The notes beneath the pieces are model-generated. The model had not been told where the DNA came from. It was given only the letters and a program-made list of their open reading frames with translations, and did no database searches. From assembly GCF_001447155.2 (NCBI RefSeq), contig NZ_CP014754.1, positions 868,001-932,000 of the forward strand: a DNA stretch of 64,000 nt, read 5' to 3'. The position numbers were made by a program, and so were the translations under genes. This stretch comes from Marinobacter sp. LQ44. Its GTDB lineage: Bacteria; Pseudomonadota; Gammaproteobacteria; Pseudomonadales; Oleiphilaceae. The stretch's first letter is position 1. Each line of letters starts with the position of its first letter. Shown one piece after another: positions 3,963-43,577 of this stretch.

Positions 3963-4019
3963 TTGGGGTCAGACCCCAAGACATTTCACCCCATCAAATG
4001 TTCTGGGGTCTGACCCCAA
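3963..4019. repeat. E element 1 (nested palindrome, 57 bp)
   Basis: Two inverted arms (TTGGGGTCAGACCCCAAGAC and a near-complement) surround a short loop. Each arm holds its own palindrome, GGGGTC-A-GACCCC. It lies between the phosphorylase operon and vgrG and overlaps the last eight codons and stop of the phosphorylase gene. Confidence 0.95.
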
Positions 4020-5745
4020 CTTGGTTAGAGAGCCAGACACTTTGGTAGGGTTTGAGGGTGAGCACCCCGCTCTGGTCGTCGATGGCCATACCGGAAAGCA
4101 GATCGGTCCACTGGTCGGTGCCAATGAGGTTGATGTCGGTGAGGGCCACTTGCTGCACTTCGTCGCTTATGTTGTGGATGCAGAAGATGGATTGTTCCCG
4201 GCGCATGCTCTGGCGCCAGAAGCCGAACAGCTGCAGGCCCAGGTGCAGGGTGAACTGGGTGGCGTTGGGGTGGAAGGCGGGTTGGGCGCGGCGGATGGCG
4301 ATCAGGCGCTTGAGTTCGGTGAAAGCTTTGCTGTGGTGGCTGAGTGGGTCCGCCAGGGCGGCTTCCACGGCATCCAGCTGCCACTGGCCGCGATTAATAG
4401 AGCGGAAGCGGCCGGTGTGTTCTACCCGGGCATGGTCGTTTTCGGTGGCCAGCAGGCTGTGAATATAGAACGCAGGAATACCTTCCAGCGCCAGCATAAT
4501 GGTGTGGGCGCAAAGGAATCGCTGTAACTGCCAGTGGTCTGCGCCACCCTCGGCGGTGCCTTTGAGGGCATCCCACAAGGCAATGTTCATTTCGTAGGGC
4601 TGGTCCCGGCCGTCGGCAGTGCGCCGGTAGGATACCTTGCCGCCGAAAGATTCCATGGTATTGATCAGCCGCTGCTTCTCGTCCTCGTCCAACAGGCCGT
4701 CGGTGGGCCGTAGGCCAACGCCATCATGGGAAGCAATGAAGTTCAGGTAGGTGGTGCCCATCTGCGCCGGCGGCATGCTCATCAGCCAGGTTTTCAGGTG
4801 TCGGCAATTGCCGGTGACCAGGGTATTGATCAGCAGTGGCGGTAACGAGAAGTTGTAGATTGCATGGGCTTCGTTGGCGTTGCCGAAATAAGTCAGGTTC
4901 TCCCGGTTGGGCACGTTGGTTTCGGTGATCACCACCGCATCCGGCGTGTGGTGCTCAATCAGCAGGCGCAGAATCTTAATCAGTTCGTGGGTCTGCTGCA
5001 GGTGAATGCAGGGCGTGCCCGGTTCTTTCCACAAGAACGCCACCGCATCCAGCCGGAAGATCCTGACCCCACGTTCCAGGTAATAGTGGATAATCCGGGC
5101 AAATTCGATCAGCACTTCCGGGTTGGCGAAATTCAGGTCCACCTGGTCTTCGCTGAAGGTACACCACACATGGCGTTCGCCGTCGTCGGTCTGCACCGGG
5201 GTCAGCAGTGGTGACGTCCGGGGCCGCACCACCATGCTTAAATCGTCTTTCGGGTTGCCCTCAAAGAAGTAATCCTTGCCCGGCCCCACGCGCTTGCGAA
5301 AATTCTCGAACCAGCGGCTGCGGGCCGACATATGGTTGATCACCAGGTCTGCCATCAGCTTATAGTCCCCGGCGATGGCTTCGATGTCGTTCCAGCCACC
5401 GTGGGACTCGTTCACCGCCAGGTAATCCATCACCGAAAAACCGTCGTCCGAGCTGTACGGAAAAAATGGCAGGATATGCACGGCGCTGATGACATCCCGC
5501 AGGCTGTCATCCAGAAACCGTTTCAGAGTCACCAATGGCTTCTCATCTGGCTGCTGAACGGTATCGGCATAGGTGATCAGCACGACGTCCGATGGGTCCC
5601 AATGGTTCTGGTGCGCCGGCGGCGCCTCGGCATCGGGCACCAGTGCCATGGCATCCATTAATTGCTCTGCCACAAAGGCACAGTCCACCGCCGGGTAGAC
5701 CACTTCCAGCATGGCCACCAGTTTGCTGCCCAGAGTCTGGTTCAT
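3994..5745 (-). CDS. GH13_18 glucosylglycerate/glucosylglycerol (sucrose-type) phosphorylase
   Basis: A 583-residue GH13 enzyme of the sucrose phosphorylase group. These enzymes split a glucoside with phosphate to give glucose 1-phosphate. Visible catalytic residues are Asp233 ([10 protein letters not shown]), Glu275 (ITETNVPN) and Asp341 (FIASHDGVG). It is the last gene of an operon with a glucosyl-3-phosphoglycerate synthase and phosphatase, and its ATG overlaps the synthase stop as ATGA. That context favours glucosylglycerate as substrate. Glucosylglycerol phosphorylases are also known in this subfamily, including in Marinobacter, so the acceptor is unsettled; sucrose is less likely. The last eight residues (VGVRPQNI) and the stop are encoded by repeat E1, so the native C-terminus probably ended near SVWLSNQ. 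Confidence 0.85.
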
Positions 5746-6965
5746 GGCCGGAACTCCTGGTTATCCAGTTCCACCGCTTCCAGCAACTGCTCCCGGATAT
5801 CCGGAATGGCGCTGGTTACCCGGTTCCAGCTCGGGATGAACGGCGTGTCCATGGGGTTGTCGAGGAAATAGGCGCCGGCGCGCATCACGTTCTGGGCGAA
5901 CAGCTCCACCGCTTTCTCTTCCTTGTGGCGATCGAAACTCAAACCATTGATGATGGCATCGTTCTGATAGGTTTCCACAAAATCCAGGGCAATACGGAAG
6001 TAGCTGGCCTTGATGGTGCGGAACTTTTCGTTAGAGAAAATCTCACCGTTGGTGGCCAACTTACGGAACAGCGCCTTGGAGATATCCACGCTCATCTTGG
6101 ACAAGCCACGGCTGGCGTCTTCCGGTGACAGGTCCTGATGCTTGTGGTCATAGACATCCGCCACATCCACCTGGCACAGGCGATTGGTGGCGTAGTTGCG
6201 TTTCATTTCAGACAAGACACCAATTTCCAGGCCCCAGTCACTGGGAATGCGCAGGTCGTTGATGACATCGGTGCGGAAGGAGAACTCACCCGCCAGCGGG
6301 TAGCGGTAGCTGTCCAGATAATCCAGAAAATCGTTCGGCCCACACACTTTTTTAAGTGCGCGAATCAGCGGCGTGACCAGCAGGCGGCTGACCCGGCCAT
6401 TCATGCTGCCGTCCGCCACCCGGGCATAATAGCCTTTGCAGAACATGTAGTTGAAACCAGGGTTGGCCACAGGGTAGATCAGGCGCGCGAGCAAATCCCG
6501 GGAATAGGTCAGGATGTCGCAATCGTGCAGCGCCACGGATTTACTCACGCCCGAGGCCAGTACATAGCCAAAGCAATACCACACGTTGCGGCCCTTCCCC
6601 ATCTCCGTCGGTGCCAGGCCCTGTTCCCGCAGCTTCATATCAAGGGCACGCAGCCGGGGGCCGTCGTTCCAGAGCACCTTGAACGGCTGCGGCAGCTCGG
6701 AAAAATACTCCAGAGCACGGCGGTACTGGGGTTCATCAGCGCGGTCCAAACCGATCACAATCTCGTCCAGGTAGGGAACCTTGGTCAGCTCCTGGACGAT
6801 GTTTTTAAGCGCGGCCCCCTCCAGCTCCGAGTACAGAGACGGTAACACCAGAGACATAGGCCGGGCTTTACGAAAGCTCATCAGGTCCGCTTCAACATCT
6901 TCCACGGGGCGGCGCACAAGGTTGTGCAGGGTGGTGATAATGCCATTCTGGTAAAAGTCGCCCAT
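5742..6965 (-). CDS. gpgS: Glucosyl-3-phosphoglycerate synthase, GpgS-like (GT81)
   Basis: A 407-residue GT-A-fold glycosyltransferase that joins NDP-glucose to 3-phosphoglycerate, the first step to the osmolyte glucosylglycerate. Recognisable segments are [13 protein letters not shown] at the nucleotide site, the metal-binding stretch [11 protein letters not shown], and [20 protein letters not shown]. The start at 6965 (MGDFYQNGI) is chosen because GGAGGAG sits just upstream; a longer frame to 7091 has no such site. It begins 13 bp after the phosphatase stop and overlaps the phosphorylase start by ATGA, so the three genes form one transcription unit. Cytoplasmic, no membrane segment. GpgS is favoured over mannosyl-3-phosphoglycerate synthase by the partner phosphorylase. 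Confidence 0.88.
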
Positions 6966-6978
6966 GGCGGCTCCTCCT

Positions 6979-7782
6979 TTACTGGTAGCCGTACTCAAAG
7001 AGCAAATTGAGCACGCATTCATTCCAACCCTCCGGGCCGGGCTTGAGGGAGCGCATGGCGTGCCGGGACGACGGCAACTGAACCTGGTCACTGTTCACCC
7101 CGCGAATCACCACCGGTACGTCGGCGGCCTCCAGCATGCTCTGGTCGTTGGGGCTATCGCCCAGAGCGATGCTCACAATGGGTGCTTCGCCATAGTGCTC
7201 CTGATAACGCTTCAGCAAGAACCGGGCCCCCTCCGCCTTATCAAAGGTGCCCATGGCATGCCAGAAGCGCCCGCCCTGCACCAACTTCAGGCCCGCCAGC
7301 TCAAGCGCCGCGCGGAATTGCGCCAGCTCTTCCTCCGTGCCATCCCACACCAGAGGCACCGTTGCCAAACGCTGTTTCGCCCGGGCCGCCTCCGTTACTG
7401 TCAACCGGGTGAGCGCCGCCACCTGCTCCGCAGACAGGTCATCAAAGCTCCGAAACCGTGCACCGCTTTTCCTTTGCACCAAAAGAGTGCGAACAACCTC
7501 CTGATAAGACCGGCCAACATGAACCACTTCTTCCTCCGCATTGCCCAGGCAGCCAGCAGGAATCACCACCGCCGCGCCGTTCTCCGCAATAAACGGCCCC
7601 CGCAGCCCCATCATGCTTTGCAACTCACTGATCTCCGCCGCCGTTTTGCTGGAATTGAAAATCAACGGAATGCCATTGGCCCCCAACCGCGCCATCGCCG
7701 GCTTCGCCGCCCGCCAGCTATAGCTGTCGTGATCCAGCAAGGTGCCGTCCAGATCCGTAAAAACAATCAACCGTGGTTGCAT
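6979..7782 (-). CDS. gpgP: Glucosyl-/mannosyl-3-phosphoglycerate phosphatase (HAD superfamily)
   Basis: A 267-residue HAD phosphatase of the mannosyl-3-phosphoglycerate phosphatase family. Motif I is FTDLDGTLLD with Asp10 and Asp12. The SSK segment of motif II (FNSSKTAAEI) and the late acidic motif (ALGDSPNDQSML) are present. It removes the phosphate from glucosyl-3-phosphoglycerate made by the next gene. The start at 7782 (MQPRLIVF) follows a GGGG-rich ribosome site; codons further upstream lie in repeat E2 and would add a repeat-derived tail. It is the first gene of the operon, only 26 bp from E2, so no room remains for a separate promoter outside the repeat. Confidence 0.87.
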   Translation of the reverse strand: MQPRLIVFTDLDGTLLDHDSYSWRAAKPAMARLGANGIPLIFNSSKTAAEISELQSMMGLRGPFIAENGAAVVIPAGCLGNAEEEVVHVGRSYQEVVRTLLVQRKSGARFRSFDDLSAEQVAALTRLTVTEAARAKQRLATVPLVWDGTEEELAQFRAALELAGLKLVQGGRFWHAMGTFDKAEGARFLLKRYQEHYGEAPIVSIALGDSPNDQSMLEAADVPVVIRGVNSDQVQLPSSRHAMRSLKPGPEGWNECVLNLLFEYGYQ

Positions 7783-7808
7783 TTCCCCACCCCGCTCTGC
7801 AATGTAAC

Positions 7809-7864
7809 TGGGGTCAGACCCCAAGACATTTGATGCGGTGAAATGTTCTGGGGTCTGACCCCAA
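7809..7864. repeat. E element 2 (nested palindrome, 56 bp)
   Basis: Same architecture as E1, with loop bases gatgcggtg. It occupies half of the 108-bp space between the divergent gpgP and selO starts, leaving 26 bp on each side. Confidence 0.95.
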
Positions 7865-9347: not shown

Positions 9348-9404
9348 TTGGGGTCAGACCCCAGAACATTTGACGGGGTGAAATGTCTTGGGGTCTGACC
9401 CCAA
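9348..9404. repeat. E element 3 (nested palindrome, 57 bp)
   Basis: It fills the gap between convergent selO (stop at 9345) and the permease (stop codon begins at 9406). Position and hairpin shape fit a two-way terminator, although no T-run is present. Confidence 0.95.
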
Positions 9405-12437: not shown

Positions 12438-12628
12438 CCCTCACAAACGGTAACAACGGGACACAGATCACAAACAGACAGGAAGGGCACGAGGGCTTAT
12501 TCTGAAACCGTGGAATCAAGCAGTATCCGCCCATGGCGGAGGAGCCGAGTAGTAACTCCGCCGTATTATGGGGCCTGACTCCACAGGATTAACGAATTTT
12601 TCAGGCACTTTCGTTCTTTCCAAATTTC

Positions 12629-12660
12629 TTAAGCCAGCTCTCGTAAGCTGGCTTTTTTAT
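12629..12660 (+). terminator. Rho-independent terminator downstream of the response regulator
   Basis: Perfect 9-bp stem AAGCCAGCT / AGCTGGCTT (12631-12653) with a short loop, followed by a T-run. Confidence 0.8.
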
Positions 12661-12668
12661 TGGTTTTC

Positions 12669-12773
12669 CGGGTCTGTCCCCGAACGGGGACTGACCCACC
12701 TTTGCCCGTCCTTGCCACTTAACTCGAACCCATGGGGCCAAGATGGGTCAGTCCCCATGCGGGGACAGACCCT
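12669..12773. repeat. Long palindrome-ended repeat (single inverted copy of the 91-bp unit)
   Basis: It starts GGGTCTGTCCCCG and ends GGGGACAGACCC. The interior is the reverse complement, with changes, of the tandem unit at 13955-14240. The two sites bracket the AraC-type gene in inverted orientation. The rest of 12438-12831 holds the terminator above, one decayed half palindrome near 12570 and no visible gene. Confidence 0.85.
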
Positions 12774-12831
12774 TAGGGACAGCCCTTGGGAGTCCCTAAT
12801 CCAACCACGAGTGGGATTGTGTAAAAGTGGG

Positions 12832-13872
12832 TCAGACCCCTTTGGGGTCAGACCCTGTAAGACCCCTTCGATAATCCCCAGGCGTCTTCCCAGCAGCCGC
12901 CTTAAACTTCCGGTGAAAAGACGTGGTCTCGCTATACCCCAACCTCAGCGCGATGTCGGGAATGCTCATATCGGTATTCCGCAAATAGTCCTCCGCCATC
13001 TGCTGGCGCACGTCATCCAGTAGCTTCTGGTAGGAAACGCCTTCCTGGCTCAGTTTGCGCTGCAGGGTGCGGCTGGTCATGCCCAGGTCTTCGGCGATCA
13101 TGTCTTGCCGGGTCACGCCGCTGGCCAGTTGTTTCTGGATGCCTTGCTTCACTCTGGAGGTCAGGTCGGTATCGGTATCCAGCAGGGCCAGCTGGGACAG
13201 CGCATGGGCTTCAAGGGTCTTGCGCAGCAACGGGTCTGGTTGGCGGAGGCGGGTGGCCAGTAGATCCTGAGGCATGGTCACCACATTCTCCGGCGCTTCG
13301 AACTCAACGGGGCAGCCCCAGCGCTCCTGATAAGCGCTCTCATAGTCAGGGCCTGGCGAGGAGCGTTTCAGGGCAACCCGGATTGGAGAAGCGTTATCGT
13401 TATCTGCCAGCCAGCGAGCATAGTTAATCCAGGAGGAAAAAACGTTATCCACCACCTGGGGCCACACCACCGGGTCGGTAAAGTTGCAGGTCCACACCAA
13501 CGACACTTCATTCCCCTTCATCCGAAGGCCGGTCGTGCCCATGTCCCCTACCAGTTTTTCATAGGGCGCAATGCGGGTAACCGCCTCCCCCAGCGTGGCA
13601 CAGCTCATGGTGATATAGCCAAGCACACTGTAGGAACCGGGCTGAACGAAATCACCGGTTTCCAGGCCAAGGATGGGATTGCCGGATGCTTCGGCCAACA
13701 GGTGAATAAACGTCTGCAACTGCTCGCCCTTCAGGCGGCCGTCATCGGTATCAAGGATATTCGGTTCAAGGCCGGCTTTGCTGAACAGCTCTGAGGTGCT
13801 GATGCCCTTGGCATCGGCATAGCGAACGTATTGACGCAGGGCGGCTACAGAGGCGGTTCCAAGAGGGGTCAT
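12832..13872 (-). CDS. AraC family transcriptional regulator (OruR/ArgR-like, arabinose-binding-type N-domain)
   Basis: A 346-residue regulator. The N-terminal ~200 residues resemble the ligand-sensing domain found in many marine AraC proteins (FSKAGLEPNILDTDDGRL; LGLETGDFVQPGSYSVLGY). The C-terminal ~100 residues hold two helix-turn-helix motifs ending in DIALRLGYSETTSFHRKFKAAAGKTPGDYR. The start at 13872 (MTPLGTASVAAL) is chosen because everything upstream in the open frame is translated repeat. The last residues (TGSDPKGV) and the stop lie inside an E-type repeat (about 12828-12856), so the native C-terminus was probably replaced or extended. Its ligand and target cannot be read from the window. 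Confidence 0.85.
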   Translation of the reverse strand: MTPLGTASVAALRQYVRYADAKGISTSELFSKAGLEPNILDTDDGRLKGEQLQTFIHLLAEASGNPILGLETGDFVQPGSYSVLGYITMSCATLGEAVTRIAPYEKLVGDMGTTGLRMKGNEVSLVWTCNFTDPVVWPQVVDNVFSSWINYARWLADNDNASPIRVALKRSSPGPDYESAYQERWGCPVEFEAPENVVTMPQDLLATRLRQPDPLLRKTLEAHALSQLALLDTDTDLTSRVKQGIQKQLASGVTRQDMIAEDLGMTSRTLQRKLSQEGVSYQKLLDDVRQQMAEDYLRNTDMSIPDIALRLGYSETTSFHRKFKAAAGKTPGDYRRGLTGSDPKGV

Positions 13873-13954
13873 GACGACTGCTTTGGTTGTTGATTTTATG
13901 CAGCGAGTATAACCGAAAATGGGTAGGGCTGGGGTGTTATGGGGTTTGTCCTCA

Positions 13955-14240
13955 GGGTCTGTCCCCGCATGGGGACTGACCCATTTTGGAACCAATGGGT
14001 TCGAGTTTCGGGGCAAGGACGGGCAAAGGTGGGTCAGTCCCCCAAGGGTCTGCCCCCGCATGGGGACTGACCCATTTTGGAACCAATGGGTTCGAGTTTC
14101 GGGGCAAGGACGGGCAAAGGTGGGTCAGTCCCCCAAGGGTCTGTCCCCGCATGGGGACTGACCCATTTTGGAACCAATGGGTTCGAGTTTCGGGGCAAGG
14201 ACGGGCAAAAGTGGGTCAGTCCCCGTTCGGGGACAGACCC
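13955..14240. repeat. Three tandem 91-bp palindrome-ended units
   Basis: Units start at 13955, 14046 and 14137 with an exact 91-bp period and few differences. Each begins GGGTCTGTCCCCGCATGGGG and ends GTGGGTCAGTCCCC. The array runs to 14240 and finishes with an inverted terminal motif. It fills most of the 380-bp gap between the AraC gene and argG; no gene is supported there. Confidence 0.93.
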
Positions 14241-27080: not shown

Positions 27081-27088
27081 AAGTCTGA
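26963..27088 (+). pseudogene. 5' fragment of the TPR/methyltransferase-like gene
   Basis: The ATG at 26963 and the next 39 codons (MHVQHHNAHLPRSVQAQAAR and on) are identical to the start of the intact gene at 30147. After 27080 the frame meets repeat sequence and stops at once. It is cut from its sigma-54 promoter by IS66 and has lost over 90% of the gene. Confidence 0.93.
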
Positions 27089-27097
27089 CCCCAAATT
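27083..27097. repeat. Half E element
   Basis: GTCTGACCCCAAATT, the outer half of a right arm, placed exactly at the breakpoint of the truncated TPR fragment. Confidence 0.8.
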
Positions 27098-27188: not shown

Positions 27189-27428
27189 ATGGAATCCGTC
27201 AACATGCACGAGGCAAAAACCCGCCTGTCTCAACTCGTCGCCCGCGCAGCCAAAGGCGAAGCTTTCATCATCGCAAAGGCGGGCAAGCCTGTTGCCAGGG
27301 TAACCGCCTACGATTCTCCTGAAGAGAGCCAACAGAGACGATTGGGTTTCTTGGCGGGCGAATTCAAAGTGCCGGACGATTTTGATCAGATGGGGCAAGA
27401 CGAGATAACCGAGTTGTTCGGAGGGTGA
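27189..27428 (+). CDS. Phd/YefM-type antitoxin
   Basis: A 79-residue antitoxin. MESVNMHEAKTRLSQLVARAAKGEAFIIAKAGKPVARV is the classic Phd/YefM DNA-binding and dimerisation fold. The C-terminal ~25 residues (DDFDQMGQDEITELFGG) should wrap the toxin. GAAGGTGG precedes the start, and the toxin gene begins one base after its stop region. Such pairs repress their own operon. Confidence 0.92.
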   Translation: MESVNMHEAKTRLSQLVARAAKGEAFIIAKAGKPVARVTAYDSPEESQQRRLGFLAGEFKVPDDFDQMGQDEITELFGG

Positions 27429-27429
27429 C

Positions 27430-27816
27430 ATGAACCTTCTTCTGGATACTCACCTACTGCTCTGGGCCGCAGCGGAGCCAGATAAGTTATCCCCCGAAGC
27501 GGCAGCCATGATCAGTAACGAAAATAACAGGCTGTACTTCAGCGCCGCCAGTATCTGGGAAGTGGTCATCAAAAACGGCCTGGGGCGGCCAGACTTTCAT
27601 GTTGACCCACATCTGCTCCGGCGCGGCCTGGTTGATAATGGCTATACCGAATTGGCAATTTCGTCACTGCACACCTTGGCCATTAGCCACCTGCCGGAAA
27701 TCCACAAAGACCCATTCGACAGAATTCTCGTTGCCCAGGCCGAGACAGAGGGCTTCCTGTTGCTGACGGCCGATAATCTGGTCGCACGCTATCCTGGCCC
27801 TGTCCGCCAGGTCTAA
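27430..27816 (+). CDS. PIN-domain toxin (VapC-like)
   Basis: A 128-residue PIN ribonuclease with conserved acids in LLLDTHLLLWAA (first Asp), IWEVVIKNGLG, DPFDRILVAQAE (second cluster) and LLTADNLV (last Asp). It forms a type II pair with the upstream antitoxin, and its TAA lies one base before E4. Confidence 0.93.
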   Translation: MNLLLDTHLLLWAAAEPDKLSPEAAAMISNENNRLYFSAASIWEVVIKNGLGRPDFHVDPHLLRRGLVDNGYTELAISSLHTLAISHLPEIHKDPFDRILVAQAETEGFLLLTADNLVARYPGPVRQV

Positions 27817-27817
27817 T

Positions 27818-27874
27818 TTGGGGTCAGACCCCAAGACATTTCACCCCGTCAAATGTCCGGAGGGCTGACCCCAA
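27818..27874. repeat. E element 4 (right arm decayed)
   Basis: The left arm is intact; the right arm reads TCCGGAGGGCTGACCCC, so pairing is weakened. It separates two toxin-antitoxin modules. Confidence 0.9.
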
Positions 27875-27957: not shown

Positions 27958-28191
27958 ATGCATCTTGACGAGCTTATCAGCATGGTCAGACGTTTGCCGC
28001 CGGCGAGACAACAGGAAGTCATCGATTTTGCGGCCTTTCTCGAACAGCGATACGCCGCCAAGAACAATCAGCAACAAACCGACTGGCCTGAGGAAGACTT
28101 CAAGGCCATGAGTGCTGAGCAAGCCATGCGAGGCATCGAGGATGAGCCAGAGCTCTATTCAGATAAAGATATTCAGGAGCATTGGCAGTGA
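27958..28191 (+). CDS. DUF2281-type antitoxin
   Basis: A 77-residue acidic protein. LDELISMVRRLPPARQQEVIDFAAFLEQRY matches the DUF2281 helical core found in antitoxins. It overlaps the next gene by GTGA, and pairing with a MazF-like protein supports an antitoxin role. Confidence 0.8.
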   Translation: MHLDELISMVRRLPPARQQEVIDFAAFLEQRYAAKNNQQQTDWPEEDFKAMSAEQAMRGIEDEPELYSDKDIQEHWQ

Positions 28192-28535
28192 AGCAGGCTG
28201 GTGATATCGCTTTGATGCCATTCCCATTCACTAACCTGGCCAACGCCAAAAAACGGCCTGTCCTGCTGTTACGAAAGCTGGATAACAGTCACGACGACTG
28301 GTTAGTTTGCATGATCTCCTCCCAGTTACATCAGTTCAATCCAGATCTCGACTGGAAACTCGACAGTACCCACCCAGAGTTCGTTGAGTCTGGCCTGAAG
28401 ACCTCCAGTGTCTTCCGATTGTCAAGAGTAGCAGTACTCGATGGATCACTATTGCTGGGCAAACTTGGCGCTCTACCCGACACCAGACTGCAAAACCTCA
28501 AGCGCCGCTTGGCAGCCTGGATCACAGAATCCTGA
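28188..28535 (+). CDS. MazF/PemK-family toxin
   Basis: About 115 residues. KQAGDIALMPFPFTNLANAKKRPVLLL is the PemK/MazF opening; SVFRLSRVAVLDGSLLLGKLGAL holds the later conserved strand. This family consists of mRNA interferases. The start is placed at GTG 28188, which overlaps the antitoxin stop; TTG at 28182 is the alternative. Confidence 0.85.
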   Translation: MKQAGDIALMPFPFTNLANAKKRPVLLLRKLDNSHDDWLVCMISSQLHQFNPDLDWKLDSTHPEFVESGLKTSSVFRLSRVAVLDGSLLLGKLGALPDTRLQNLKRRLAAWITES

Positions 28536-28543: not shown

Positions 28544-28560
28544 TTGGGGTCAGTCCCCAA
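28544..28560. repeat. Half E element
   Basis: TTGGGGTCAGTCCCCAA, one arm only. The stop codon of the minus-strand neighbour (28550-28552) lies inside it. Confidence 0.85.
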
Positions 28561-29962
28561 CTCCAGCCTTAGCAAACACCCCCTCAAACAAAGCCGTTCT
28601 CCGAAGCCGTTGCCCAGCCTCCTCGCGGAACAGCACTCGCTCCGGGTTCAGCTCAATCAACCCCAACAGCCGGAACAGGCGGATTACCCTGGAATCGAGC
28701 GCCCAGCGGGTTTGTTGTTCTTCGCTGGCATACGGCCGTGAGTGCGCCGAAAGAGGCAATTGCGGGAAGGCTGCCAGCATATCGTTTATGCAGCCATCAA
28801 CCGGCAACCAGACGCCGCCTTTCTCTGCCAGTAACCACAGGAAGAAAGGACCGACGGTTTGTATATCGTCCAGCCCGTCGTAGTGGTCCATCCAGGCCCA
28901 GTTAAATTCGGAGAACGTGGCGGCCAGCATGTCCTGGTACAGGGTTAACCAGCCTTTTGTGTGGATGCGTTTGGCGGCAGACTTCTTCAGCAGCAGCCGG
29001 CCCTTTTCCTTTCGGGTGTAGCCGGCCAACTCCAGGAGCACACGGGTGAGCTGCACGCCAAGAATGTCTTCCTCGGAACGCACAGAACCGTATCCGGCAA
29101 ACGGCACCACAACCTCCTCGCCGGCGGCCTCTATCATGGCCTTCACCTGCTTGAGCGGCAGGTTACCTTTGCCGGTCAGGCGAATGCCCTTCTCGCCCAG
29201 CTCGTTAACCAGTGCCTTTGCCATTTGCAGGATAGGTGCGGTATCCAGTTCCTGGTCAACCGTTTTTGCATTGGTCAGCGGCTTGAACACAGACGGGCAA
29301 TGCAGCGGGCTTAGCAGCAGTTCATGCATCTGGCTGGGGCTCAGGCCATGGAAATCAGCAGGCGGCAGCGCATCAACGTCGCTCTCCGCAAACAGGGCAT
29401 CCCGCTCTGGAAGCAGCTGATTGATCTCCTCCAGCTTCACAAACTCGGGATCAAACTCCCCGCCCCACCACTCCTTCACACCCTCGTGTTCCGGGTGCGC
29501 GGGGTCATGCATCGCATCCACAAACTCATAGTAGCCATGCACCCCACCCACATCCTCCGGCGGGCACTGGCGTGCGGCTTTTATACAACGGGGCAAGTGC
29601 CCTTCATCGCCTGCAGGCAGAATCTTCTCCAGCTTTACCTGGTGTTCCCAACTGTCGCCAAAATCATACTCATATTTGATGGCCTGGCCTTCCCGCGTCA
29701 GAACACTGCCCACCCGCAAGCGGGTTTCATCCCGAAACCCCATCATGTCATCTTCATCCTCCGCCGGGTCGCCAATCAGCCTGCCATCCGCCGCCTGAAA
29801 CAAATGCAGATGCGACGCCCGCCACCCCATGGCAATCTGAATTATCCGGTGTAAATCCTGAAACGTCGCCTGCGGCGAAATCAGCAAGCGCCGCCAGATA
29901 GGCGGCCTGATGCCAGAAAGCGTGACCCTTACCTGATAAACACCCATACCCTGCGCACTCAT
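28550..29962 (-). CDS. Plasmid pRiA4b ORF-3-like protein
   Basis: A 470-residue protein. The N-terminal ~190 residues match the pRiA4b ORF-3 family: VYQVRVTLSGIRPPIWRRLLISPQATFQDLHRIIQIAMGW, then YDFGDSWEHQVKLEKI and CPPEDVGG. The function of the family is unknown. The C-terminal ~270 residues are helical and specific to a subfamily; no catalytic motif is seen. The start at 29962 is set by AGGAG seven bases upstream; only this site separates the gene from E6. The C-terminus (GVGD) and stop fall inside a half E element. Confidence 0.8.
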   Translation of the reverse strand: MSAQGMGVYQVRVTLSGIRPPIWRRLLISPQATFQDLHRIIQIAMGWRASHLHLFQAADGRLIGDPAEDEDDMMGFRDETRLRVGSVLTREGQAIKYEYDFGDSWEHQVKLEKILPAGDEGHLPRCIKAARQCPPEDVGGVHGYYEFVDAMHDPAHPEHEGVKEWWGGEFDPEFVKLEEINQLLPERDALFAESDVDALPPADFHGLSPSQMHELLLSPLHCPSVFKPLTNAKTVDQELDTAPILQMAKALVNELGEKGIRLTGKGNLPLKQVKAMIEAAGEEVVVPFAGYGSVRSEEDILGVQLTRVLLELAGYTRKEKGRLLLKKSAAKRIHTKGWLTLYQDMLAATFSEFNWAWMDHYDGLDDIQTVGPFFLWLLAEKGGVWLPVDGCINDMLAAFPQLPLSAHSRPYASEEQQTRWALDSRVIRLFRLLGLIELNPERVLFREEAGQRLRRTALFEGVFAKAGVGD

Positions 29963-29976
29963 AACCGCTCCTATTT

Positions 29977-30033
29977 TTGGGGTCAGACCCCAAGACATTT
30001 CGAGTCTGCAAATGTATTGGGGTCTGACCCCAA
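29977..30033. repeat. E element 6 (nested palindrome, 57 bp)
   Basis: Loop cgagtctg. It lies 15 bp before the pRiA4b-like start and 12 bp before the right copy of the 220-bp duplication. Confidence 0.95.
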
Positions 30034-30044
30034 ATTCAAACACC

Positions 30045-30264
30045 AAACTGGCACACCTTTCGCAACACCTCCCTCAAAGCACGGCAAACCGTCAAAAAAC
30101 TGCAGACCTTTGCCGCATCGAATCATGGCTGGTAACGAGGTGTTCCATGCACGTACAACATCACAACGCTCATCTTCCCCGCTCGGTTCAGGCCCAGGCG
30201 GCGCGGTTGGTTTTGCAGGCGAACCTGGCGTATGGGGAGTCCAACAGTAACGGGCTTTCCTATG
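30045..30264 (+). repeat. Direct duplication, right (uninterrupted) copy, 220 bp
   Basis: Matches 24401-24456 plus 26923-27080 without a mismatch; only TGCAGA (30101-30106) is extra. It contains the sigma-54 promoter, the leader and the first 39 codons of the TPR gene. Confidence 0.95.
30049..30064 (+). promoter_or_regulatory. Sigma-54 promoter of the TPR gene
   Basis: TGGCACACCTTTCGCA with GG-N10-GC spacing, 83 bp before the ATG at 30147. It matches the flagellin B promoter closely, implying control by RpoN and a flagellar activator. Confidence 0.8.
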
Positions 30265-32153: not shown

Positions 32154-32210
32154 TTGGGGTCAGACCCCCGGACATTTGGCCGCATCAAATGTCTTGGGGT
32201 CTGACCCCAA
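32154..32210. repeat. E element 7 (identical to E8)
   Basis: Loop ggccgca. It lies 3 bp after the TPR stop and 2 bp before the stop codon of the convergent toxin gene. Confidence 0.95.
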
Positions 32211-32212: not shown

Positions 32213-32542
32213 TCAACGCTGCAGGATTGCAATCACTCGATCAACCAGTCGGCCCGTAGCCTCATTACTCAGGCAGGCAACTTCTTTGAGCAGAATAGAT
32301 TCGTTGGCGGTGAACAACTTACCGGGCCGGGCAAAGCTCTGGCGATGGAGGGTACCTCTGGAAAACGAACTGTCGGCTATTTCGAAGGCCTCATTGTCAT
32401 AAGGCTTGCTTGTCACCTGGCACAAAATGTAATCACCTTTTCCGGCGCCCGCCAAAACCACGGCTGGTCGCAACTTCTGGCTGCTGAGATCCGAGAAGGG
32501 AAACCGAATCAGAACTACACTTCCTTTTTTAAATGCTCCCAC
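32213..32542 (-). CDS. MazF/PemK-family toxin
   Basis: A 109-residue PemK-like protein: KKGSVVLIRFPFSDLSSQKLRPAVVL opening, then DYILCQVTSKPY and GKLFTANESILLKEVACLS. A likely mRNA interferase. It overlaps the upstream antitoxin by 28 bp, which implies coupled translation. The pair is enclosed by identical copies E7 and E8. Confidence 0.87.
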   Translation of the reverse strand: MGAFKKGSVVLIRFPFSDLSSQKLRPAVVLAGAGKGDYILCQVTSKPYDNEAFEIADSSFSRGTLHRQSFARPGKLFTANESILLKEVACLSNEATGRLVDRVIAILQR

Positions 32543-32730
32543 GCTTTTTCTTCATCATCCTTGAGCCAATCCTCCGCCAGCGCTGATTCTGCAGCAGCCA
32601 GCACCTCATCCTGAGGATCCACCTCATCCAGCAAGGTAATCAAAACCCGGCGGGCACCCTTGATAGAGACCTTCTCCAACCACTCAATATGGCCCTTCTC
32701 ATTTATAACCGCTTCAACTGTATGCAACAC
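32515..32730 (-). CDS. Antitoxin partner of the MazF-like toxin
   Basis: About 71 residues starting VLHTVEAVINEKGHIEWLEKV. The GTG start at 32730 is preferred because AAGGAGG lies six bases before it; the open frame reaches 32763. The beta-rich N-terminus followed by an acidic helical C-terminus (LAEDWLKDDEEKAWEHLKKE) fits a type II antitoxin with a toxin-wrapping tail. Confidence 0.8.
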   Translation of the reverse strand: MLHTVEAVINEKGHIEWLEKVSIKGARRVLITLLDEVDPQDEVLAAAESALAEDWLKDDEEKAWEHLKKEV

Positions 32731-32802
32731 CTTAAGCCTCCTTATTGGACGGCGTTTGCTCAATTATAACCCAATTCAGCAACAATCCCGGATTCCTCGA
32801 AT

Positions 32803-32859
32803 TTGGGGTCAGACCCCCGGACATTTGGCCGCATCAAATGTCTTGGGGTCTGACCCCAA
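32803..32859. repeat. E element 8 (identical to E7)
   Basis: A 57-bp direct repeat of E7 with the same loop. It lies 2 bp beyond the sbcB stop codon. Confidence 0.95.
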
Positions 32860-37611: not shown

Positions 37612-37668
37612 TTGGGGTCAGACCCCCGGACATTTGAGGCGGTCAAATGTCTTGGGGTCTGACCCCAA
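37612..37668. repeat. E element 9 (nested palindrome, 57 bp)
   Basis: It sits between the convergent cyclase (stop 3 bp away) and fic gene (stop 1 bp away). Confidence 0.95.
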
Positions 37669-37669: not shown

Positions 37670-38797
37670 TTATAGAGTCAGTTGATAGCGGGCGTAGCGC
37701 CCTTTGCTTTGGATGGGAGCTAGTACATCCTGGGCGACCAGGTTCTGAAGGTCGCGGGTAGCGGTGGCTTTGGAGCAGCGTGTCAGGTTCTGGTATTTCT
37801 TTGCGTTGATTCCACCCTCAAAACCGGGAGCATCGTGCCCGTGCATTTTACGAATCAGCTTCAACTGTCTGTCGCTCAGATTACGGTTGTTCAGCGAATC
37901 CCAGAAGCGTGCCTTTTTAACCACATACTGGATAACCTGGATGCTGCCGTCCAAAGCCTCAACAACCCGCTCACCAAACCAGTTCACCCACGGCGTTACA
38001 TCCAGAGTCTCTTTTGAGGCTGCATTCAATTGCTGGTAATAGGCTTTCCGATGTTTACTTAGCACCGTCGCCAGGCTCATCATCAACGGCTGCTCTAACA
38101 TCTGTGAAACTGCCACATCGGCAACCGCCCGGCCTACCCTGCCATTACCGTCTTCATAAGGATGGATAGTTTCAAACCAGAGATGAGCAATCGCAGCACG
38201 GGCCACACCAGGCAACTCCAGCGAATCGTTATTGAACCAATCCAGAAACACCTTCATTTCCGTCGGCACCCTCGACGACGGCGGCGCCTCGAAATGCACT
38301 GTGGGATTGTGAATAGCACCCGAGACTATCTGCATAGCATCAGAGTGCATGCGCCACTGCCCAGGTGCTGTTCGCACCCCCGAAAACGGGCTTGAACCGG
38401 CCTCAGGGAGAACCAACTTGTTCCAATGGTGCAATCGCTGCTCCGTTAGAGCTTCACCATAAAGGTCCATCACCTCGAGAATGACAGCCGAGATACCCGC
38501 TGCGACCGGGTCATGCACCGCAACCTTCTCATCCGGTTTCAAGAAATGATTCTTGATGGAACTGCGCACATCTTCGCGATTGAGCGCCTCACCCTCAATG
38601 GCACTGGTCTCAATGGCAGCACTCACAAGAAGATCCAGCCTTGCCTCGCTTCCGAGATCCTCCGGAACAACCGACATCGCCCCCAGAATTCTCTGGGAGG
38701 CCGCCAGCGCTTTCTGCGTCCAAAATTCCGCTTCTGCATGATCAAAGCGAAAGTGCGGCCAGTCTTTCAGTTCCCAGGTATACATTGCGTGAGCCAT
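37670..38797 (-). CDS. fic: Fic/DOC family AMP-transferase (class II)
   Basis: A 375-residue Fic protein. The catalytic motif HPYEDGNGRVGR is at residues 212-223, with all key residues present. An N-terminal inhibitory helix motif, T-S-A-I-E-G at 64-69, marks class II, where Glu68 blocks ATP until released. A C-terminal winged-helix-like region (about 300-375) follows. It AMPylates protein targets. It is a solo gene bracketed by E9 and E10. Confidence 0.93.
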   Translation of the reverse strand: MAHAMYTWELKDWPHFRFDHAEAEFWTQKALAASQRILGAMSVVPEDLGSEARLDLLVSAAIETSAIEGEALNREDVRSSIKNHFLKPDEKVAVHDPVAAGISAVILEVMDLYGEALTEQRLHHWNKLVLPEAGSSPFSGVRTAPGQWRMHSDAMQIVSGAIHNPTVHFEAPPSSRVPTEMKVFLDWFNNDSLELPGVARAAIAHLWFETIHPYEDGNGRVGRAVADVAVSQMLEQPLMMSLATVLSKHRKAYYQQLNAASKETLDVTPWVNWFGERVVEALDGSIQVIQYVVKKARFWDSLNNRNLSDRQLKLIRKMHGHDAPGFEGGINAKKYQNLTRCSKATATRDLQNLVAQDVLAPIQSKGRYARYQLTL

Positions 38798-38869: not shown

Positions 38870-38926
38870 TTGGGGTCAGACCCCAGAACATTTCGGGTGG
38901 TCAAATGTCTTGGGGTCTGACCCCAA
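38870..38926. repeat. E element 10 (nested palindrome, 57 bp)
   Basis: Loop gggtgg. The hipA stop (38901-38903) lies in its loop, so the element encodes the end of HipA. Confidence 0.95.
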
Positions 38927-40124
38927 AAGTGATTTCGTGGCTGCTTGCGCGGAAGGTTTGGGACATGGTGGTGCCTACCTGAGTGAAGGCGGGTGTCTTG
39001 GTTGTGTACGAGTCTATCTGATCAGCAATCTCAGTGAGTTTTTGCGCCAATAACTCAAGATCTGTGCTTACCTCAGCCGTTGTCAGGCCACAGGATTGGC
39101 GGGCGAAGTTTTTCAAGTAACTCAAAGGCCACCATACCTTCCGGCCAGACAGGGTCAGCGCAGGTACATCACGCTTCAGGTAGGGCGTGGTAGAAACAAT
39201 GTCGTAGGTGGGTGCCAACCAGCGTTCACCAAACGGCTCGCAATACAACAAGCCAAAGTTCTTCAGATGGGCATCTCCATTGCGTACGGCCCATGAGAGC
39301 AGTACAGACCTGAATAACCAGCGCAAGCCTTCACGGCGGTGTTGCGGGGAGAGAAATAGCGATAATGTTTTAGCCAGCTTCTCATAACTACCAGAATACT
39401 TATCCTCAGGCAGCAATCCTTGCAGAACACAGGCATCTTCAAAACCCAACCAAGAGCCATCCGGCCGACGGTCAAAACGAGACATGATGAACAACCGGCC
39501 ATTATCAGAAAGATAGAAATCCGGTACCGGCAACCCGAACTCCCGAGCCACAGTCATGCAAAAGTACTCATTGGCTGCCAATTGCGGATAGTCATCGCCC
39601 CAGGTCTTTACAATGTAGCCTTCGGTGCGAAGCGTCGATTTTTCAGAAATAGAGGCCGGCACCAAAACCTTCGGTTGCACGCCGGAAACGCCTGAACGAA
39701 GGGCGTACTTTTCAACGAGTTCCTCAAACAACGAGTCGTCCTTGGCAGCCAGCAACCTGCCCAACGATTCGCCTTGGTGCTCATCACCCATCCCTGCAAA
39801 ATCATCAGCCGTCACGACCACTCGACCAACCTGATGCCGACCCAGTGTTGCCAGCACCGTCAGATCCCCGGAGCCATAAAGCTTGGCAACATGCTTTCTG
39901 ATGATGTCGCCCAAATAGCCCTCAGGCAGATTCTGGGCAAAGATCGGATGCACGCCATCGAAAGCATAAGACGCCTCACTCACCGGCATGGTCACCGACA
40001 CTGCAGACTGCTCGGGCACACGTTCGCGATACACAAACACCGATGGTTCCGGCCGCTCTGGTGAAGACAAGTCACCCACAACACTGCCAGATACCTCTAC
40101 CCTTGCCCGGCGAACAGAAGTCAT
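38901..40124 (-). CDS. hipA: HipA family kinase toxin
   Basis: A 407-residue Ser/Thr kinase of the HipA family; the E. coli enzyme phosphorylates glutamyl-tRNA synthetase. N-subdomain FAQNLPEGYLGDIIRKH, the ligand loop SGVQPKVLVP (near 145), the catalytic loop RNGDAHLKNFGLLY (near 290) and the following YDIVSTTPY are present, so it looks complete. It overlaps hipB by ATGA. The last residues FGVRPQDI and the stop are encoded by E10, so the native tail has been replaced or extended. Confidence 0.93.
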   Translation of the reverse strand: MTSVRRARVEVSGSVVGDLSSPERPEPSVFVYRERVPEQSAVSVTMPVSEASYAFDGVHPIFAQNLPEGYLGDIIRKHVAKLYGSGDLTVLATLGRHQVGRVVVTADDFAGMGDEHQGESLGRLLAAKDDSLFEELVEKYALRSGVSGVQPKVLVPASISEKSTLRTEGYIVKTWGDDYPQLAANEYFCMTVAREFGLPVPDFYLSDNGRLFIMSRFDRRPDGSWLGFEDACVLQGLLPEDKYSGSYEKLAKTLSLFLSPQHRREGLRWLFRSVLLSWAVRNGDAHLKNFGLLYCEPFGERWLAPTYDIVSTTPYLKRDVPALTLSGRKVWWPLSYLKNFARQSCGLTTAEVSTDLELLAQKLTEIADQIDSYTTKTPAFTQVGTTMSQTFRASSHEITFGVRPQDI

Positions 40125-40378
40125 TCCAGCCCCCGTTCATTATCTCTCTGAAGGTCTTTTAACGTCGGCAATCCCCCCATAGCACGCACCGAAAACTCCA
40201 ACCCCAGAACAGCAAGTAACCGTTCCAGTTTGGCATAGCCCATTTCCGGAAGGTGCTGATTCTCCAGTTTCGATAGGGTTGTCCGGTCAACGCCCGCCAG
40301 GTCAGACAAAGCCTGCATGGACAAGCCTGCGCGTTTGCGCTCTTTTCTGATAAACGGACCAAGTTCGAGAAGGGTCAT
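40121..40378 (-). CDS. hipB: HipB-type antitoxin, XRE family
   Basis: An 85-residue helix-turn-helix protein: LGPFIRKERKRAGLSMQALSDLAGVDRTTLSKLENQ. The start at 40378 is chosen over a frame to 40432 because the longer one runs through the operator. It neutralises HipA and represses the pair. Confidence 0.92.
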   Translation of the reverse strand: MTLLELGPFIRKERKRAGLSMQALSDLAGVDRTTLSKLENQHLPEMGYAKLERLLAVLGLEFSVRAMGGLPTLKDLQRDNERGLE

Positions 40379-40380
40379 GT

Positions 40381-40430
40381 GGATATACTCTACATTCCGA
40401 CGAATATCTTCTAGATTGTAGCGTATATTC
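40381..40430 (-). promoter_or_regulatory. Probable HipB operator
   Basis: Inverted arms GGATATACTCTAC (40381-40393) and GTAGCGTATATTC (40418-40430) match at 11 of 13 positions. They lie directly upstream of hipB and contain the GGATA core known from E. coli HipB sites. Confidence 0.65.
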
Positions 40431-40496
40431 ACAACTTGGCGAAAAGAATAGGCGGCGTAAACGAAATCGGGCCGCTGATTCCGCGGCCCGATTCAA

Positions 40497-40865
40497 TCAA
40501 TCCTGCTGCCAGCTTTGAACAGCTTCCTTACCGTGCTTTTCACGCCACTCGTTCAGAGTTTTGTGGTTACCGCCACGGGTTTTAACCACTTCACCGGTGT
40601 GCGGGTTCTTGTAGGTTTTCATCGGGCGCTTGGCGCGGGTACCGGTTGAAGCATCCGCTTTGGCGCCTGCAATCGAGGGGTCAATCGCCGCCAGAATCTG
40701 CAGAACATCCTTGGGAGATTTGTCATATTCCTTCATCAAAGCACGAACCTTGTTTTCAAATTCCAGTTCGCCTTTCAGTGCCTGGTCCTTCTCGAGCTGT
40801 TCCAGCTCAGCGGCCAGCTTTTCCATCAGCTGTTTCTTCTGGTAGTAATCGTTAATCTTTGCCAT
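40497..40865 (-). CDS. mvaT: MvaT/MvaU-family H-NS-like silencer
   Basis: A 122-residue xenogeneic silencer. An N-terminal coiled coil (about 1-60, LEQLEKDQALKGELEFENKVRAL) drives oligomers. The C-terminal AT-hook-like domain (KTYKNPHTGEVVKTRGGNHKTLNEWR) is the MvaT signature. Such proteins coat AT-rich foreign DNA; the neighbouring O-antigen and TA regions are natural targets. It has its own promoter. Confidence 0.93.
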   Translation of the reverse strand: MAKINDYYQKKQLMEKLAAELEQLEKDQALKGELEFENKVRALMKEYDKSPKDVLQILAAIDPSIAGAKADASTGTRAKRPMKTYKNPHTGEVVKTRGGNHKTLNEWREKHGKEAVQSWQQD

Positions 40866-41016: not shown

Positions 41017-41073
41017 TTGGGGTCAGACCCCGATACATTTCATGCCATCAAATGTCTTGGGGTCTGACCCCAA
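41017..41073. repeat. E element 11 (nested palindrome, 57 bp)
   Basis: Loop catgcca. It lies 2 bp past the dehydrogenase stop and directly before a terminator. Confidence 0.95.
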
Positions 41074-41075: not shown

Positions 41076-42338
41076 TTATAGGCGCAGGTCTGCATGCCCC
41101 AACGGCAATATACCTTTCAAATCAAACAGCACACCGTTGCCATTGGTATAACCACGTAATTCATCCGCATTCAAAGCCGCGTATTCCCTGTGCGGAACGG
41201 CCAGCAAGACAGCGTCATAGTTTCCTTTCGCCGGCTCTGGTACCAATGAAATACCATATTCATGCTCTGCTTCGGCATTATCTGCCCAGCAATCGGTAAC
41301 ATCCACCTGGCAGCCATAATCCTGAAGTTCGCGCACCACATCAATCACACGGGTATTGCGCAGATCCGGGCAATTTTCTTTAAAGGTAAAGCCCATAATC
41401 AACACCCGGGAACCCGCAATGGTGTGGCCTTTTTTAATCATTGCCTTCACCAGGACCGAAGCAGCATAAGGCCCCATATTGTCATTTACCCGACGGCCGG
41501 CCAGAATAATCTCCGGGTTATAGCCGATGGCCTGGGCTTTATGGGTCAGATAATACGGGTCCACCCCAATACAATGCCCTCCCACCAGGCCGGGTTTAAA
41601 CGGCAGGAAGTTCCATTTAGTTCCGGCGGCGGCCAATACTTCATTGGTGTCAATCTTCAAACGAGCAAAGATCATCGACAACTCATTCATCAAGGCAATG
41701 TTCAAATCCCGCTGGGTGTTTTCAATCACCTTGGCGGCTTCCGCGACCTTAATGGAACTGGCCTTGTGGGTGCCGGCGGTGATGATATCCGCGTATAAGG
41801 CATCCACTTCCTCAGCAATCTCCGGCGTGGAGCCAGACGTCACCTTCATAATGGTCGTCACCCGGTGCTCTTTATCGCCCGGGTTGATCCGCTCGGGGCT
41901 GTAACCGGCGAAGAAATCCTGGTTGAACACCAGGCCAGACAGCTTCTCCAACACCGGCACACACACCTCTTCGGTGGCACCCGGGAACACCGTGGATTCG
42001 TAAATAACAATGTCACCCTTCTTCAACACCTTGCCCACACTCTCACTGGCCTTCACCAGCGGCGTCAGGTCCGGGCTTTTGTATTCATCAATGGGCGTAG
42101 GTACCGTCACAATATAGATCTGGCAATCGGCAATGCCCTCCAGCGAATCCGTAAACGACAAATGCTTTGCCGCCGCCAACTCATCCGCAGACACCTCACG
42201 GGTAAAATCCACCCCATCCTTCAGCTCGGCAATGCGCTTGCTGTTGATATCAAAACCAACCACCTCGCGCTTTTCACCAAAGGCCGCTGCCAAAGGCAAG
42301 CCCACATAGCCCAGGCCAATAACACCAATCCTTTTCAT
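41076..42338 (-). CDS. tviB: UDP-N-acetylglucosamine C-6 dehydrogenase (TviB/WbpA-type)
   Basis: A 420-residue UDP-sugar dehydrogenase that converts a UDP-HexNAc to the uronic acid with NAD. The NAD fold opens [17 protein letters not shown]. The catalytic Cys lies in [15 protein letters not shown] near residue 260. [11 protein letters not shown] and [18 protein letters not shown] also fit the TviB/WbpA group rather than UDP-glucose dehydrogenase. The start at 42338 has GGAGGATTC just upstream and lies only 13 bp from E12. It is cut off from the main O-antigen locus by hipBA and the nuclease gene. Confidence 0.9.
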
Positions 42339-42351
42339 GAATCCTCCAATT

Positions 42352-42407
42352 TTGGGGTCAGACCCCAAGACATTTTGATCGGTCAAATGTTCTGGGGTCT
42401 GACCCCA
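42352..42407. repeat. E element 12 (identical to E13)
   Basis: 56 bp, loop ttgatcgg. It directly follows a TAA (42408-42410) that may be the original hipA stop. Confidence 0.95.
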
Positions 42408-42435
42408 TTATTTGATGTTCTGCTGATAGGCTTGA

Positions 42436-43185
42436 TCAAGCTGCTGATGGATAAGCCCTGGCGCCCGATGCCTCGGGAGCCGGCAGCAACTGCCAGCGGG
42501 GAGGCTGCAATCCCGCGCGTTCTGCCAATGATAGATAAACCGCCTCACACAACCCTTCTTCATGGCCTAGTGGCAGATTGGCAGAGGTAAACTTAACCAG
42601 CCAGGCTTCATCACCAGCGATGGGCCGGGTGCGACACACGCCGTACTCCCCTTCAGCAAAATACAGTTGCGCCTTGGGCCGCGCACCTGCGGAGCTTCCG
42701 GCGGCAACCAGTTCGGCCAACACATCCGTCGTTTGCCCGTCGAATACGGCCTGCGCCTGAAGCCCAAGCTCTGCTGTTTCAATCAGCTTGTCATCCGCTA
42801 CCGGCGCAAATTCCGCCACCGGCGTATAACTCAGTGCACCGGTGCCCGTAGCGCCCACAAAAGCCAGCCTGTCCATCGGCGTTACCTGAGCTGGCAGAAT
42901 ACCCTGCTGACGAAACACCCGGTCCATCAACAGTAACCCCCAGCCATCAGGCAGAGAATCCGCGAACACCCCCGGCAGCCCGCCATGGGGATCGCGGGGA
43001 GCCAGCTGCACCGTCGCATCCCACTTCAATGCAAAGGGCGACAACGGGCTGAACCTGGCCAGGTAATCTGCATCGTACTGAAAGAATACGCCTTGCCGGT
43101 TCTGCGCCAGGCCACCAACCAGGGCCCGCTGCCCATCGCTGAACGTGCGCCAAACCGCTAACTGGCGAACCGGGGCAAAGCTCAC
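42436..43185 (-). pseudogene. hipA: Truncated HipA-like protein
   Basis: The 249-residue frame covers the HipA N-terminal part: LPGVFADSLPDGWGLLLMDR, then GATGTGALSYTP and AGSSAGARPKAQLYF. It ends abruptly after LLPAPEASGAR, before the catalytic loop (N-GDxHxxN) and the rest of the kinase lobe. The final residues AYPSAA look out of frame. In the next frame the DNA reads APGLIHQQLDQAYQQNIK and a stop that touches E12, suggesting an internal deletion that removed about 150 codons and shifted the frame. It overlaps hipB by ATGA. Kinase activity is not expected. Confidence 0.8.
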
Positions 43186-43454
43186 TGGGCAAGCACCTCA
43201 TCCAGTGAACGCGGCATAGGCTTTTGCTCCGCGCTCGTCAAATCCTGAAACCGATGAAGATCATCCACGCACTGCCACAACAGTAAAAACTGCCGTAATG
43301 AAATCTGCCCCGTGGTTTCAAATTTCTTGATGGTCGGTGCCGGCACAGTACTGCGCTCCGCAAGCACCGCCCGCGACCACTTCAAGGCCTTCCGCCGCTC
43401 CTGCACGTACGCCGCCAAGGCAACCTGTACATCCCGCCCTGAAATCAGATTCAC
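43182..43454 (-). CDS. hipB: HipB-type antitoxin/regulator, XRE-like
   Basis: A 90-residue protein. VALAAYVQERRKALKWSRAVLAERSTVPAPTIKKFETTGQISLRQFLLLW is a helix-turn-helix of the HipB type. It is the partner of the broken hipA downstream and probably still represses its own promoter. Confidence 0.82.
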   Translation of the reverse strand: MNLISGRDVQVALAAYVQERRKALKWSRAVLAERSTVPAPTIKKFETTGQISLRQFLLLWQCVDDLHRFQDLTSAEQKPMPRSLDEVLAQ

Positions 43455-43498
43455 AGAGATACCTCCATATCCAAAAGCCAGTTAATTATATCAAATTG

Positions 43499-43512
43499 GA
43501 TACAGTGGTATC
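43499..43512 (-). promoter_or_regulatory. Probable operator of the second hipB
   Basis: A perfect dyad GATAC-agtg-GTATC lies 45 bp before hipB. A further TATCC occurs at 43468-43472. Confidence 0.5.
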
Positions 43513-43521
43513 TATTTTAAA

Positions 43522-43577
43522 TTGGGGTCAGACCCCAAGACATTTTGATCGGTCAAATGTTCTGGGGTCTGACCCCA
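43522..43577. repeat. E element 13 (identical to E12)
   Basis: A 56-bp direct repeat of E12, same loop, enclosing the second hipBA pair. Confidence 0.95.

Follow-up and report, generated by a model that had tools for sequence, protein, structure and literature searches.

Repetitive extragenic palindromic (REP) sequences and the tyrosine transposases tied to them have been described in several arrangements (PMC2817692 is among the background papers). In the REPIN/RAYT (REP-associated tyrosine transposase) system, as set out in the relevant passages of Bertels and Rainey (2011, PMC3116915), a spacer between two conserved, mutually inverted palindromic ends gives a long hairpin, and the repeats adjoin the RAYT gene, which according to a portion of PMC8049555 is inherited as a single copy. 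In the passages describing TIRtrons and their TIRYT (terminal inverted repeat-associated tyrosine transposase) enzymes (Di Nocera 2013, PMC3733652; largely subclass 2.1 of PMC6006769), the Y1 gene lies between inverted repeats, and in the sections on the Marinomonas REPtrons Ma and Mb (PMC8266576) the repeats cluster near their own transposase gene. The long retention of single-copy RAYT transposases and hairpins by bacteria is a standing question. It is addressed here by a hairpin element, E, found in a 64,000-nucleotide window of Marinobacter sp. LQ44 (contig NZ_CP014754.1, positions 868,001 to 932,000; the genome is G000 below, and other G-numbers are the other Marinobacter genomes compared). 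E is the terminal-repeat/REPIN-type family of one single-copy HUH tyrosine transposase (RAYT/TIRYT), a known kind. These hairpins scarcely change at a given site, are almost confined to genomes with the transposase, and lie at the ends of exchanged cassettes, many of them toxin-antitoxin pairs, so the pair may have a role in gene exchange that can be tested in marine bacteria.

The 12 E copies of the window share the plan GGGGTCAGACCCC-N3-ACATTT-N9-AAATGT-N3-GGGGTCTGACCCC, with a core of exactly 53 bp in each. The window contains 82 matches to GGGGTCAGACCCC (up to 2 mismatches, both strands counted), compared with a mean of 1.96 and a maximum of 6 in 100 shuffled windows. The initial annotation had listed 12 full or decayed copies, all of which were located, 11 with both arms intact and the one at 27818 with a decayed right arm. 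Its two half copies are also real but unequal, that at 28544 being one palindrome and that at 27083 the tail of an arm only. A fixed-spacing pattern allowing up to 3 mismatches over the fixed positions gives 29 copies in G000, of which 27 have no mismatch at the 38 fixed positions, one has a single mismatch and one has two; the inner stem ACATTT/AAATGT is unbroken in all 29. In the 28 of 29 copies inspected base by base, the variation is confined almost entirely to the 9-nt loop and the two 3-nt joints. Five sequences from four sites fold as single-strand hairpins at -22.7 to -26.7 kcal/mol (z -7.6 to -9.7). E therefore combines two inverted conserved ends, one hairpin and a variable spacer, which is the composition of a REPIN, while none of these 28 copies was seen to have the GTAG or GTGG guide of a REP next to it.

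No E copy is present from 43.6 to 64 kb of the window, and Rfam and tRNA scans of the window gave no match. The full E pattern had no match in viral contigs, and a phage-borne origin was rejected on that ground. Doublets with the same ends occur in 7 of 368 sampled genomes of other Gammaproteobacteria, where the CATTT core is absent from the first places listed per genome.

The initial annotation saw no recombinase, which is correct inside the window, but a transposase gene lies 54 kb beyond it. G000 has only one match to PF01797 (Y1_Tnp, 57 bits), a 216-residue frame at about 986.01-986.66 kb, and E copies start on either side of it at 985,889 and 986,663. The gene is thus single-copy and repeat-flanked and its product has a Y1 domain with HUH and Y-x3-NP, as in RAYT / TnpA-REP proteins; the earlier suspicion of a RAYT-like system proved well founded, as the doublets also follow the gene across the genus. 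The one solved structure related by sequence is TnpA-REP 4er8, and the score against NCBIfam REP_Tyr_transpos is 78.8 bits, the cut-off being 80. The threonine between the histidines of the Marinobacter enzyme falls outside the residue list in the pertinent part of PMC6006769. E starts with GGGGTCAG, which is present in the copies on both sides of the transposase gene and fits the GGGGWSAS consensus that, in the TIRtron passages of PMC3733652, many such repeats carry; by this feature the gene belongs with TIRYT. Those passages also describe repeats that, like E, have no GTAG tag, some of them self-complementary and some in moderate repeat families. The same passages describe neither cassettes between repeats nor an arm-versus-loop pattern, unlike what we find for E. 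A C-terminal helix-turn-helix domain, attributed to subclass 2.1 in the corresponding section of PMC6006769, was not detected: Pfam listed none for two proteins at expectation values up to 10, a search in which HMMER filters lose weak matches.

E is closely tied to this gene. Within 200 kb of it lie 24 of the 29 copies, where 2.6 would be expected if they were uniform. Among 61 genomes of the genus, at least three E-like doublets occur in 12 of the 13 that have the gene (at least 68% identity) versus 1 of the 48 others, giving a Fisher p of ~1e-10 with relatedness not corrected and a three-doublet threshold set after the counts were seen. The sole genome without the gene that reaches at least three doublets, G077, has different hairpins at its listed places. 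The HTH and YIELNP motifs are kept, with no stop, in all 13 relatives at or above 68% identity, whose sequences were extracted without demanding the motifs. Several of the transposase loci inspected have cysQ or metallo-hydrolase neighbours. Element and transposase therefore co-occur across the genus, and the element variant differs by lineage, including in the copies next to the gene.

In its single-copy gene the Marinobacter system is like REPIN/RAYT as portrayed in the cited portions, from which it differs in having 29 copies mostly near the gene, no GTAG/GTGG, and a position at the bounds of accessory modules. The Marinomonas REPtrons, in the sections concerned (PMC8266576), have GTAG-tagged REPs with no cassette link described, unlike E. 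The passages of PMC3116915 offer only the speculation that REPINs with useful DNA would be favoured. Text searches of the literature, in which subscription journals were mostly uncovered, found no REPIN/RAYT link to toxin-antitoxin cassettes, and with the same coverage nothing of evident relevance on the E arm sequence, on REP with gene cassettes, on cassettes and inverted repeats in Marinobacter, or on Marinobacter with RAYT.

To follow the element at fixed sites, 28 G000 copies were compared with G018 with no demand on the G018 sequence, the 810-kb copy being left out. The element is present at the aligned site in 22 of the 28 comparisons. In 21 pairs of equal length the arms differ at 1/798 positions, the joints at 6/126 and the loops at 17/189; the 22nd pair has one additional loop base and intact arms, and two G018 copies are counted twice because G000 has two copies for one. 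The flanks, at least 80% alike, differ at 98/1920 positions (~5%). The arms are therefore near-constant at fixed sites while the loops drift. The single arm difference in 798 would also suit arms conserved for a service to the host, for instance as a two-way transcription terminator, and not for the transposase; several E-less genomes do have an ordinary hairpin in the gap where TPR and sbcB converge. We nevertheless regard this explanation as improbable, because doublets are nearly absent where the genome lacks the transposase, and the E-like copies of G063 at TPR/sbcB look decayed, the best transposase match there being a 43% fragment.

Modules, often toxin-antitoxin pairs, are present or absent among relatives with junctions at E. 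In stretches of nine genomes, the outer flanks of 15 adjacent E pairs meet at one E or remnant in another species, and 5 further rows span two intervals with flanks meeting in the same way. The 15 pairs are not all independent, four representing the same cysQ site where G068 is without the gene, and the pattern used detects only copies with limited arm decay. G018 is without mazEF and one E (a 649-bp unit), and also without hipBA at 4228 kb and one E. The syntenic comparisons thus contain the clean element-to-element presence or absence envisaged by the initial annotation, whose modular claim is partly right, many copies being located between core genes. Its statement that nearly every module has E at both ends is partly wrong: no E lies between hipB and mvaT (40497-40865), so that the hipBA interval also contains mvaT. 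G031 and G032 have hipBA at the same place, likewise without E on the mvaT side. In G062, one intact E stands between vapC and the pRiA4b-like gene, where G000 has DUF2281-MazF/PemK.

The site between TPR and sbcB illustrates the turnover. It holds mazEF in G000 and in G062 (to its contig end), hipBA in G014, an SNF2-type helicase with mazEF between hairpins of another stem in G032, a 5.7-kb insert with E-like but decayed ends in G063, and a single E in G018, G010 and G068. Since mazEF is at the same site in G062 and G032, it was probably lost in G018, and the idea that it is a recent gain in G000 was withdrawn. The second hipBA of the window was probably lost in G035, judging from a hipA piece 98% identical in G062. 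For the hipA at 4228 kb, no close match was found in the other stretches compared; its right flank aligns in G018, G035 and G067 and its left in G018 only, and of the two E copies around this hipBA one has the G018 loop exactly and one with a single change.

A hairpin with the same ends and a different stem, GGGGTCAGACCCTGGCC...ATGACAAGC, replaces E at the TPR/sbcB site; it occurs twice in G032, around the helicase and mazEF, and once in G035.

For the tested proteins beside E, Pfam support was obtained for PIN, zeta, AbiEii, ParE/ParD, Fic, nucleotidyltransferase, HipA and BrnA. Cargo other than toxin-antitoxin genes includes a type VI secretion system effector and, on a reading of the frames alone, phosphatase-like genes (G018) and a metabolic block (G035). 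Ordinary genes likewise have E at their flanks (alpha-amylase family, selO, TPR protein, ugd). A zeta-toxin cassette is found at two sites, between rfaH and cysQ in G014 and on the other side of the transposase gene in G068, and the two are 81.5% alike over 1125 bp, the similarity running from half E to next E. On both sides of its transposase gene G014 has PIN, zeta, second PIN, BrnA with ParD, AbiE and nucleotidyltransferase modules, most of them separated from the next by an E copy or half; single copies of E occupy the corresponding places in G000. The proposition that all toxin-antitoxin genes are E-bound was rejected: G000 has two PIN matches, one in the window and one at 2.42 Mb.

To evaluate the association quantitatively, breakpoints between G000 and G018 were compared with a null of random intergenic placement, in which gene calls are crude and some E copies lie inside called frames. 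Within 35 bp of E lie 10 of 32 breakpoints (null mean 3.2, p 0.0001), in regions selected for holding E. Both ends are this close in 4 of 16 events, one of them a G018 insertion beside a single E (null 0.37, p 0.00015), and at least one end in 6 of 16 (null 2.8, p 0.014). The remaining 10 events include one at a half E and one between repeats of a related other family.

The loop tends to be the same in both E copies that flank a variable module. Flanking pairs have a mean of 2.9 loop and joint differences versus 7.0 (p 0.00014) for 11 hand-picked pairs, the five omitted being four cysQ pairs and one 147-bp tandem, and 4.1 versus 7.1 (p 0.0011) for all 16 pairs, which are the 15 adjacent pairs, four of them at the same cysQ site, plus the first G014 pair from a two-interval row. 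Around the PIN cassette of one site, both E copies carry TGCCATACC in G014 and both carry TAACCGATC in G010, where one copy has a damaged arm. The loops thus differ between the genomes pair by pair, indicating that the two members of a pair change in concert, the outcome expected of recombination between them.

We consider it likely that E is a REPIN/TIR family of the RAYT/TIRYT kind in which recombination between copies exchanges cassettes. Recombination between two E copies would excise the module and leave one E behind, E-bearing modules would enter at E sites by the same route, and recombination within a flanking pair would homogenise both copies. The exchange may be ordinary homologous or single-strand short-repeat recombination, perhaps aided by hairpin nicking, while the transposase would keep the arms matched to its own recognition.

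Several observations weigh against this reading. No arm-like palindrome lies within 35 bp of the breakpoint in 8 of the 16 G000/G018 events, and G077 has mazEF at the TPR/sbcB site without E. Many E copies are located between genes that relatives share and show no associated change of module; among them, seven copies at 949 to 987 kb are unchanged between species and have the same neighbours on either side. Three of the 28 fixed sites lack the element at the aligned position in G018 (in one it is displaced by other repeats, in another truncated, in the third replaced), and for 3 more the G018 stretches gave no flank match. In G026 the transposase (79%) is present without any doublet. Gain versus loss is settled for few modules, and all of the evidence comes from sequence. 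The copies between shared genes, the eight events lacking a palindrome, the G077 mazEF and an 836-bp gap without E at the same site in G076 would also suit a passive REP-like repeat that lands between genes, with modules turning over at the same places for other reasons. This alternative seems very improbable, since the breakpoints exceed random intergenic placement, the junctions are exact, and the flanking pairs share loops. The initial annotation had named copies scattered between core genes, unlinked to module change, as the contrary case; many such unchanged copies exist, but module gain and loss are still linked to E.

It is conceivable, though unlikely, that the transposase itself catalyses the exchange by folding and cutting single-stranded E, which would make the system an HUH-enzyme counterpart of an integron. 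The module with one E would then leave as a single-strand circle and join another E. With similar doubt, the whole might be viewed as a domesticated HUH transposase cassette system, whose hairpins would be the exchange sites for toxin-antitoxin cassettes with one hairpin each. At both junctions that were read closely against G018 a module and one E indeed come or go as a unit, E forms a long single-strand hairpin, the HTH and YIELNP motifs are intact in the relatives above, the zeta cassettes have a similar E on the right at both sites, and the multi-module stretch of G014 around the transposase gene faces single copies in G000. In addition, a section of PMC8266576 reports in vitro cleavage and rejoining of single-stranded REP by related enzymes; the REPs in that section, however, have a GTAG guide and E is without one. 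Moreover, the loop of a flanking pair is often the one present at the same site in relatives, and an incoming foreign cassette would be expected to have a loop of its own.

Chromosomal integron arrays contain many toxin-antitoxin cassettes, and each cassette has a site that folds as a single strand. The E modules resemble them in both respects, and the array layout and toxin-antitoxin cargo would suit an integron cassette array with attC sites. We practically discount this origin: no attC core is recognised in E, whose arms are unlike any known to us, nearly all copies have a 53-bp core, and the element travels with a Y1 gene, the co-occurring enzyme being an HUH transposase and not a tyrosine recombinase. 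The integron was set aside on these grounds, no integrase search having been made.

The features of the window are collected in Table 1. Synteny with G018 is lost just past the E copy at 9348..9404.

Table 1. Copies of E in the window and the genes or modules lying between them.
Feature	Coordinates	Strand	Remarks
E element	3963..4019	.	loop CACCCCATC; between vgrG-like and alpha-amylase-family genes
E element	7808..7864	.	loop GATGCGGTG; identical site and loop in G018
E element	9348..9404	.	loop GACGGGGTG; selO on one side, major facilitator superfamily (MFS) gene on the other
E-arm fragment	27083..27092	.	tail of arm only; abuts 158-bp repeat
phd-vapC module (Phd/YefM antitoxin, PIN toxin)	27189..27816	+	PIN toxin 96% identical in G062
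E element, right arm decayed	27818..27874	.	
DUF2281-MazF/PemK module	27958..28535	+	missing from G062
half E, single palindrome	28544..28560	.	one mismatch, GGGGTCAGTCCCC
pRiA4b ORF-3-like gene	28550..30046	-	coordinates are those of the mechanical open reading frame (ORF)
E element	29977..30033	.	loop CGAGTCTGC
E element	32154..32210	.	loop GGCCGCATC; left of mazEF
mazEF-like module	32213..32763	-	PemK/MazF toxin; 82-aa partner without Pfam match
E element	32803..32859	.	loop and joints identical to 32154 copy
E element	37612..37668	.	loop GAGGCGGTC; left of fic
fic gene	37670..38797	-	fic and one E missing from G032, single E there
E element	38870..38926	.	loop CGGGTGGTC
hipBA	38901..40432	-	no E on right side, mvaT next
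mvaT gene	40497..40865	-	within supposed hipBA module
E element	41017..41073	.	loop CATGCCATC; mvaT and ugd either side
ugd, UDP-glucose/GDP-mannose dehydrogenase family	41076..42386	-	
E element	42352..42408	.	loop TGATCGGTC; left of second hipBA
second hipBA	42436..43454	-	short hipA, apparently broken; G035 has single E there
E element	43522..43578	.	loop and joints identical to 42352 copy

Other repeats were also noticed. An identical 158-bp direct repeat lies at 26923-27080 and 30107-30264, the 27083 arm fragment being just past its first copy. A second palindromic family (F-type), GGGGACTGACCC...GGGTCAGTCCCC, occupies 12570-14241, partly as a 91-bp tandem array, and has 12 doublets in the genome. 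Its copies also border a 1.8-kb insertion near 944-946 kb, outside the window, that is missing from G018. As a candidate for the E family these repeats were rejected, 6 of the 12 doublets lying within 200 kb of the transposase. A third family at 44204-45177, with the same palindrome and a GTAG tag (44.3 kb), is found inside ORF 43584-45239, which encodes a beta-CASP protein. Finally, at 19191-21820 two 500-bp arms, 92% complementary and 1.6 kb apart, lie in two divergent ORFs of ~490 aa.

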